Shown: in pieces, positions 59,682 through 61,457 of the stretch | How the letters are laid out: the number at the start of each line of letters is the position of its first letter | Position numbering within the stretch: position 1 is the first letter of the stretch | Source of the DNA: Veillonellaceae bacterium | GTDB taxonomy: Bacteria > Bacillota > Negativicutes > JAAYSF01 | Reading direction: 5' to 3' | Length of the DNA stretch: 64,000 bases | Assembly (NCBI GenBank): GCA_012523975.1 | Contig: JAAYSF010000005.1 | Location: forward strand, 1-64,000 | Made by a program: the position numbers and the translations under genes | The notes under the pieces: generated by a model | What the model was told of the DNA's origin: nothing | Database searches by the model: none | What the model saw: only the letters and a program-made list of their open reading frames with translations

Positions 59682-59717
59682 TAAAAACCGAGTCTAGTCT
59701 AGGACCCGGTTTTTTTT
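59682..59717. terminator. Bidirectional terminator
   Basis: AAAACCGAGTC pairs with GGACCCGGTTTT (one mismatch), flanked by A and T runs, between the methyltransferase and the acyltransferase. Confidence 0.85.
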
Positions 59718-60829
59718 GTACGGCTGCCTAAAAGCAATGTGCTAATCAGAGGGATAAACAGAGACAGCTTTTTTTCCAAAGCGGCAACGCTTAAACTTAT
59801 CAACACCGTCAGGATAAAGAAAATAACTACGACGGGGACTGTCATTATAATATTGTTGCTAGTTATGTAGCCAATCAGGTAATACATAACCATGGGATGA
59901 ACTAAATAAACCATATACGAATGGTCTCCAAGGCATTGAAAAATAGAGGTGAGTCTGGTAGGTATTTTGTTAAAGCTAAAAATTAAAAACCAAAATAAAG
60001 TTGCTGCGAAAGTGTAAAGTACGCCAACCGGACTTAATTGGTGGGCTGTGTTTACAGCTGCTTCAGGTGTGTAGCCCTTTACAAACAGTAAGTAATAATA
60101 AAAGATAAGCATCCCTGAAAGTGTTAGATAAAAGAATGCTGTTATTGCGGCGCGATTTTTGCGGGTAATTTCCAAAAAATCTTTATATTTTATTGCGCAT
60201 ATAGCACCTAATATAAAGATAAAGATGTAATGCGCTACCCAGTAACTTAGACGATATTGTAGGGCGAGATTTATGTAAAAGCTTGGTGATAATGGCTGGA
60301 GGAGATAACTGGAATAATAATTAAAGAGAATTTGTAAGAATAGCAGAACCGTTAAACTGCGGATTGGAGCACTTATTGTCTTGCGTACAATTAAACGCCA
60401 CAGAGGCATTAGAGCATAGAACCAGAGCAATATTACCAAAAAATAAAGTTGATAAGAGGCAAGCCCAAATAGAAAATATTCAGATAGCAGTGGTTGCTGC
60501 CAAATTGCTGTATCACCACTAACCCAAGTGTAGTGGACCATATAAATTAGTGACCAAGTCAGATAGGGAATAAAAACAGTACGTAACCGTCTTTTCATAA
60601 AATTTAAATAGTTAAATGATTCATTAAGATTTTGATTTATAAATAGACCAAAAGCAGAAACAAAGAAAAAAATAGGGACACTAAAGCGAGTAAAAATTTC
60701 TAATAAGGCAAATAAATGAATATTTACATTCGGATTACTAAGTGAAAAAGCGCCAGTATGGATACCAACGACCCCAAGCATAGAAATACCCCGAATATAC
60801 TCAATTGAGACAATACGCTGCTTTGACAT
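59699..60829 (-). CDS. Acyltransferase 3 family membrane protein
   Basis: A 376-residue integral membrane protein with about ten hydrophobic helices, of the OafA/Acyl_transf_3 family that O-acylates polysaccharides or lipids. The N-terminal IEYIRGISMLGVVGIHTGAFS includes the conserved Arg and the proposed catalytic His. FFFVSAFGLFI and MVYLVHPMVMYYLIG near the C-terminus are also family-like. CGAAAGGAAATATT before the ATG is the ribosome site. Single gene. Confidence 0.88.
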   Translation of the reverse strand: MSKQRIVSIEYIRGISMLGVVGIHTGAFSLSNPNVNIHLFALLEIFTRFSVPIFFFVSAFGLFINQNLNESFNYLNFMKRRLRTVFIPYLTWSLIYMVHYTWVSGDTAIWQQPLLSEYFLFGLASYQLYFLVILLWFYALMPLWRLIVRKTISAPIRSLTVLLFLQILFNYYSSYLLQPLSPSFYINLALQYRLSYWVAHYIFIFILGAICAIKYKDFLEITRKNRAAITAFFYLTLSGMLIFYYYLLFVKGYTPEAAVNTAHQLSPVGVLYTFAATLFWFLIFSFNKIPTRLTSIFQCLGDHSYMVYLVHPMVMYYLIGYITSNNIIMTVPVVVIFFILTVLISLSVAALEKKLSLFIPLISTLLLGSRTKKTGS

Positions 60830-61090
60830 AATATTTCCTTTCGATTACATTTAAGTTACCTGATGAGATTACTGTTTAACATCAAAACCATTTCCTTCCG
60901 ATGCCTTATACCACTTAGATATTATACTAGATAAATACTTATAGTGCCAAAATATTCATGTACTACAAAGTAACAATATGAGAAAAGATATGGCCGAAAC
61001 TGACAGGGATATAAGCTGCTAGATTCACTGTTCCTAGGGCAAAATATATTAAAACAGCTATCTAACGATTAGAATAGGAAGGAGGTAAAT
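60830..61090. other. Intergenic region, no recognised feature
   Basis: The gap between the divergent acyltransferase and the selenoprotein-like gene is AT-rich and lacks an open frame. It must hold two promoters, but no pair of good hexamers could be fixed. The strong GGAAGGAGG ribosome site at 61077-61085 belongs to the gene that follows. Confidence 0.4.
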
Positions 61091-61417
61091 ATCATCGTTA
61101 ATCTAACTCCTCTAGCTAAACAGTTTATAAGTGAGCAAGGTAATGCTATTTTAGCTAAAATCGAGCAGAAATTGTCATTTGGCTGAGGTGGCCCTAGGAC
61201 TATATCCTATCCGTCCGTGCGACTGGGAAAACCGGAAAATCACGAAACTAGTCAATTCACTAAAAGGGATGTAGACGGAATTGAAGTATATTGTCATGAT
61301 AGTGTCGAAAGACTCGCGGACACAAAGCATATTGACATCGACATCGAGGGCCAAAGTTTAATTACCCGTTTGGTGATGCGGAGGTTGCCAAAAGAAAGTA
61401 CCCTTTATCCTATTTAG
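61091..61417 (+). CDS. Putative HesB-like selenoprotein (CC/Se motif family) with in-frame TGA
   Basis: Reading through TGA at 61184-61186 as selenocysteine (codon 32) gives a continuous 108-residue protein: VNLTPLAKQFISEQG at the start, SFG-U-GGPRTISYPSVRLGKP at the active site and DVDGIEVYCHDSVERL after it. The U-GGP..P-V-x-x-GKP..VDGI-VY pattern resembles the HesB-like CC/Se family, which carries Cys or Sec at this spot. A small hairpin (TAGGA/TCCTA, 61195-61209) lies eight bases after the TGA and may be part of a SECIS. No ATG/GTG/TTG lies upstream of the TGA in a suitable place; ATC at 61091 (or 61094) follows a perfect GGAGG, so the start is odd, or the gene has lost its ATG. A 66-aa frame starting at 61217 would be the truncated alternative. 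Confidence 0.65.
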
Positions 61418-61423
61418 CAAAAT

Positions 61424-61457
61424 AAAAAAGTGAGGGAAAACCTCACTTTTTTATTTT
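61424..61457. terminator. Bidirectional terminator
   Basis: AAAAAAGTGAGG pairs with CCTCACTTTTTT around GAAAA, between two convergent genes. Confidence 0.92.

Follow-up and report, generated by a model that had tools for sequence, protein, structure and literature searches.

The stretch of DNA analysed in the current study (64,000 nucleotides, referred to as the window) contains on its forward strand, at 61091-61417, a frame that is open but for a single TGA at 61184-61186, which raises the question of whether the two halves form one gene in which the TGA is read as selenocysteine (Sec). The frame was found as the first-pass annotation had described it, with the putative Sec (U) at residue 32 of 108, and ends in a TAG stop codon (61415-61417). 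Frames of this kind are not rare, since the 64-kb window held 31 single-TGA-bridged frames of at least 110 codons, and a selenoprotein claim must therefore rest on homology and not on openness.

The results presented below indicate that UGA 61184 very probably encodes Sec and that the gene belongs to the CC/Se family NF041239, adding a member to a bacterial selenoprotein family that is already known but still unexplained. In the proposed mechanism, the locus would be a single gene for one small selenoprotein, and SelB with Sec-tRNA would read UGA 61184 as Sec, at the position of the conserved Cys/Sec of HesB-like proteins. As comparison of the family members suggests, this recoding would be directed by a hairpin at 61210-61227, which at the same time codes for the conserved residues PSVRLG.

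Family membership, reading frame and start codon

With the TGA read through, the window protein matched the NCBIfam profile NF041239 ("CC/Se motif family (seleno)protein") with 45.8 bits against a cut-off of 40 (U replaced by C for scoring; residues 3-96 aligned to profile positions 3-88 of 91), and a six-frame search of the genome also flagged it over the cut-off, at 40 bits. No Pfam match was obtained for the window protein. The family is named after a Cys-Cys or Cys-Sec pair. This pair is absent from the window protein, which has Gly-Sec (FGUGG) instead, and is likewise absent from many other members scoring above the cut-off; the membership of the window protein therefore rests on the curated score.

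The family was present in 52 of 201 related genomes, often in multiple copies, about half of which carried one TGA, and 125 members were extracted besides the window gene. A CC/Se protein has been predicted earlier as a hypothetical protein of Moorella thermoacetica, with the motif CxxU (PMC13188914). The window protein resembles the NF041239 family in its near full-length match, in the Sec region and in PSVRLG. It differs in that its subgroup has FG-U-GGP, with Gly and not Cys before Sec, and in that it lacks the C-terminal cysteines, which are present in most of its nearer relatives. Scanning the genome collection with the single window protein gave no matches; a tighter alignment recovered five named loci, among them Sporomusa malonica and S. 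acidovorans. No viral relatives and no solved structure related by sequence were found.

The nearest ortholog (59% identical to the window protein) is encoded in a Negativicutes MAG of a related genus (G001). It reads CCCGG where the window reads FGUGG, and the same downstream genes adjoin both genes. A Shine-Dalgarno sequence, AGGAGG (61080-61085), is placed as it is before the ATG of this ortholog (L116), and 5 nt downstream of it lies the probable, non-canonical start, ATC (61091-61093), which aligns with that ATG. Downstream of the stop codon there is a terminator-like hairpin (GTGAGG-GAAAA-CCTCAC, followed by a T run; 61425-61452), and the ortholog has a similar one. Apart from a TTG just upstream of the TGA, no ATG, GTG or TTG was found in frame before the TGA. 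As had been predicted in the first-pass annotation, a gene caller would report at most a GTG-initiated ORF of 66 amino acids (61217-61417); gene callers overlook or truncate CC/Se genes of this type.

The ATC may represent a weak start, early decay or a wrong base in the assembly. A former selenoprotein gene now in decay, in which the start was lost by a change from ATG to ATC and translation has ceased, would account for the want of a canonical start, which all 125 other extracted members possess, as well as for the loss of the C-terminal cysteines. This is, however, unlikely, because the frame is intact and comparison with the ortholog (dN 0.25, dS 2.07, dN/dS ~0.12) indicated purifying selection on both sides of the TGA, with 50 changes at third codon positions and 28 and 22 at the other two. 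Moreover, the Shine-Dalgarno sequence and the terminator are both in place, the hairpin agrees with its consensus at 17 of 17 core positions, and the ortholog, which starts with a normal ATG, likewise lacks the C-terminal cysteines. ATC is permitted as a start in NCBI table 11, and an assembly base error would explain it equally well.

The hairpin within the PSVRLG codons

Family members with Sec encode PSVRLG by nearly one sequence, CCG TCC GTG CGA CTG GG, usually with C before it, and the consensus RNA can be folded as CCCGUC[CGUGC]GAC(U)GGG. In the window the candidate SECIS hairpin (UCCGUC-CGUGC-GAC-U-GGG) occupies 61210-61227, and its core (61211-61227) is identical to the consensus at all 17 positions, the sole perfect match in its genome. 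A signature pattern, CC[GA]TCCGTG[ACG]G[AG][CT][TGC]GGG, was detected in 57 of 68 Sec members and in none of 58 Cys members. Across 121 genomes the matches to this pattern belonged mostly to the CC/Se family, and the four matches outside the family that were inspected (L203-L206) were unrelated genes. The 17-nt hairpin signature can be used to retrieve the Sec members of the family from whole genomes with few chance matches.

It could be argued that PSVRLG is kept for the protein only, its codons being due to chance or codon bias and the true SECIS lying elsewhere, and some Cys members do retain the PSVRLG residues. This explanation is very improbable, because the codons for these residues differ in Cys members. 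Ser was encoded by TCC in 59 of 61 Sec members but in only 9 of 28 Cys members, Arg by CGA in 45 of 59 against 1 of 27, and Val by GTG in 61 of 66 against 10 of 48, whereas elsewhere in the Sec genes TCC was used for 13% of Ser and CGA for 9% of Arg. In the ortholog, the Cys version of the element (CCGTCGGTACAATTGGG) no longer forms the hairpin. The stem pairs also covary in the Sec members. Pair 7-17 was standard (G-C, A-U or G-U) in 53 of 53 distinct rows, and pair 8-16 switches from U-A to G-C; two-sided stem changes occupied 24 cells, compared with 11.8 in shuffles (none of 500 shuffles was as high), and no such excess was observed in the Cys-member control. Judged from these sequence comparisons, PSVRLG is for the most part the translated form of a presumed UGA-recoding RNA hairpin, and illustrates that a protein motif can be shaped by a recoding signal in the RNA.

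The P codon of PSVRLG lies 21-39 nt from the UGA in Sec members. The loop of the window hairpin is 29 nt from the UGA and has G then U in its first positions, features which, together with the small loop and a stem of six pairs, agree with the bacterial SECIS model (bSECISearch constraints quoted in PMC13188914). In contrast to that model, the CC/Se hairpin has a sequence that is nearly fixed across distant paralogs and is read as a protein motif, and its distance from the UGA is variable, the longest-spaced members lying slightly beyond the upper UGA-loop distance of 37. On its own, the window hairpin has a weak free energy (-3.4 kcal/mol), below the limit of the model for an isolated hairpin, and it is not selected by free-energy folding of the region. 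Since the region downstream of the TGA folded no better than shuffled sequences, folding by itself was not taken to speak for or against a SECIS. Rfam gave no convincing match at the locus.

The first-pass annotation had pointed to a small hairpin eight bases after the TGA. This hairpin exists (UAGGA-CUAUA-UCCUA, 61195-61209), but it is not conserved, and spacers of such length fold no better than shuffles; it was therefore rejected as the SECIS, which it probably is not, the conserved element lying just downstream. Among Sec members with UGA-hairpin spacers of 33-39 nt, the longer spacers tend to fold better on their own, which might shorten the distance between the SECIS and the UGA.

One additional Cys member outside the set of 58 (L209, G115:C6:46144-46434) retains a perfect hairpin, which is likely a fossil, and the hairpin is also kept in a broken tandem copy downstream (46544). 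The window's genome has a second family member (L029, G000:C55:20434-20706, minus strand) with Sec in a CUG motif, which overlaps the end of the gene for a class I/II aminotransferase; the hairpin of L029 is the variant CCGTCGGTTCGACTGGG, the extra changes of which can pair. In L117 (G111:C128:200-490, minus strand) there are two in-frame TGAs, the second of them inside the hairpin, where the CGA for the Arg of PSVRLG has become TGA. Another subgroup (L151, L153 and L156), adjoined by CoA-transferase or thiolase genes, has a different hairpin after the TGA, of the type GUAAC-AGGUA-GUUAC.

Probable selenocysteine at the TGA

Close relatives could be aligned along the protein's length, and the alignment column of the TGA (residue 32) was occupied by Cys or Sec in all of the 27 close relatives, and tRNA-Sec (anticodon TCA), selA, selB and selD were all found in the window's genome. 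The selD gene (L080, G000:C2:3839-4759, minus strand) itself carries an in-frame TGA (TKCGGUAAKIG), indicating that SelD is a selenoprotein in this genome. The first-pass annotation had suggested a likely selenoprotein, to be checked by Cys or Sec at this site in homologs and by the four sel genes; this suggestion is now supported by the NF041239 membership, the Sec/Cys exchange, the Sec machinery and the conserved, covarying SECIS.

Of the 52 family-bearing genomes, 28 have a TGA-bearing member, and 25 of these possess selA; of the 24 in which all members have Cys, 4 do (Fisher p 1.3e-7, an optimistic value because related genomes are not independent). In the three genomes with a TGA-bearing member and no selA (G074, G091 and G135), the gene may be absent from the assemblies. 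In the sister genome G001, selA is absent from the assembly (92% complete) and both family copies have Cys; in the window's genome selA is present and both family members, the window gene and L029, have Sec. That the TGA is the ordinary stop of a short peptide, or a nonsense mutation from TGC or TGT, can scarcely be credited, because a single in-frame TGA is unremarkable alone but about half of the homologs have TGA at the same site, its presence tracks both selA and the SECIS sequence, and the Sec machinery is encoded in the genome.

Fold, gene neighbourhoods and possible function

HesB-like selenoproteins carry the motif UxGP (PMC13188914). The corresponding profile, TIGR01911 (HesB-like selenoprotein; cut-off 66.35 bits), failed to detect the window protein at E-values up to 10, detected one of the subgroup relatives only at E 0.0053, and had no match in any of 101 related genomes. 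Thirty TIGR01911-type proteins of the phylum (GUGGPxFG, with C-terminal cysteines), which score below the cut-off of TIGR01911 itself, nevertheless aligned collinearly with the window subgroup, Sec on Sec. In hhalign this alignment reached a probability of 95 and a score of 46, compared with a mean of 11.3 and a maximum of 20.9 for 199 column shuffles. The two groups have in common the G-U-G-G-P motif and the predicted fold class, but PSVRLG is absent from TIGR01911.

AlphaFold2 models were obtained for the window protein (pLDDT 84) and its S. acidovorans relative (pLDDT 80). For both models, the top nine PDB matches in Foldseek were all SufA, IscA, HI1723, AQ_1857 or YneR (best matches 2d2a, 1x0g and 1r94), with best E-values of 3.2e-4 and 7.2e-4, respectively, and a probability of 1.00 for SufA/IscA, although the TM-scores to IscA/SufA were only ~0.5. 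Profile comparison and predicted structure both assign the CC/Se family to the A-type (HesB/IscA/SufA) fold. The earlier designation "HesB-like/CC-Se" is right in a wide sense for its first part, as a fold or distant homolog and not as a member of TIGR01911, and exact for its second.

Unlike IscA, SufA and ErpA (PF01521), the window protein has no C-terminal CxC. Only the first position of the ligand trio C...CxC is kept (U32), and there is one other Cys (C68). Classical three-ligand Fe-S binding is therefore not possible as such, and the protein need not bind a cluster in the way that IscA does. A PF01521 (IscA/HesB) carrier was not found in 41 related genomes at E <= 0.001, although nine of the control genomes were positive. 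With moderate confidence, we favour a family built on an A-type CC/Se scaffold, in bacteria lacking recognisable PF01521 carriers and with paralogs in different operons, in which PSVRLG would largely be a position-locked SECIS; the Sec codon would have moved relative to it (to a distance of 21-39 nt), and the PSVRLG codons would decay after loss of Sec. The placement of the SECIS at 61210-61227 and the link to the A-type fold are new here, although they may have been mentioned in earlier literature.

The gene neighbourhoods varied by subgroup. A class IV aminotransferase adjoins the Sporomusa-type orthologs, and a class I/II aminotransferase precedes the paralog in the window's genome. Five members (L027, L028, L034, L093 and L119) are placed after NiFe-hydrogenase maturation genes (HycI protease, HupH_C), and another subgroup (L102, L115, L121, L130 and L136) adjoins ArsR regulators, ArsP permeases and CDF-like transporters, which suggests metal or metalloid handling. 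Because these neighbours differ, no single pathway can be read from the operons, and assignment of a function from them was rejected. As the most likely role, fold and neighbours together tentatively point to that of a small thiol/selenolate protein acting as carrier or chaperone, its cargo being a metal, an Fe-S unit, or sulfur/selenium in reduced form, and the A-type carrier fold provides a first testable idea on the function of these common, unexplained selenoproteins. The class IV aminotransferase gene, which in the Sporomusa-type loci lies between an acyltransferase gene and the ortholog, is missing in the window, where a homologue of that acyltransferase gene is found at 59699-60829.
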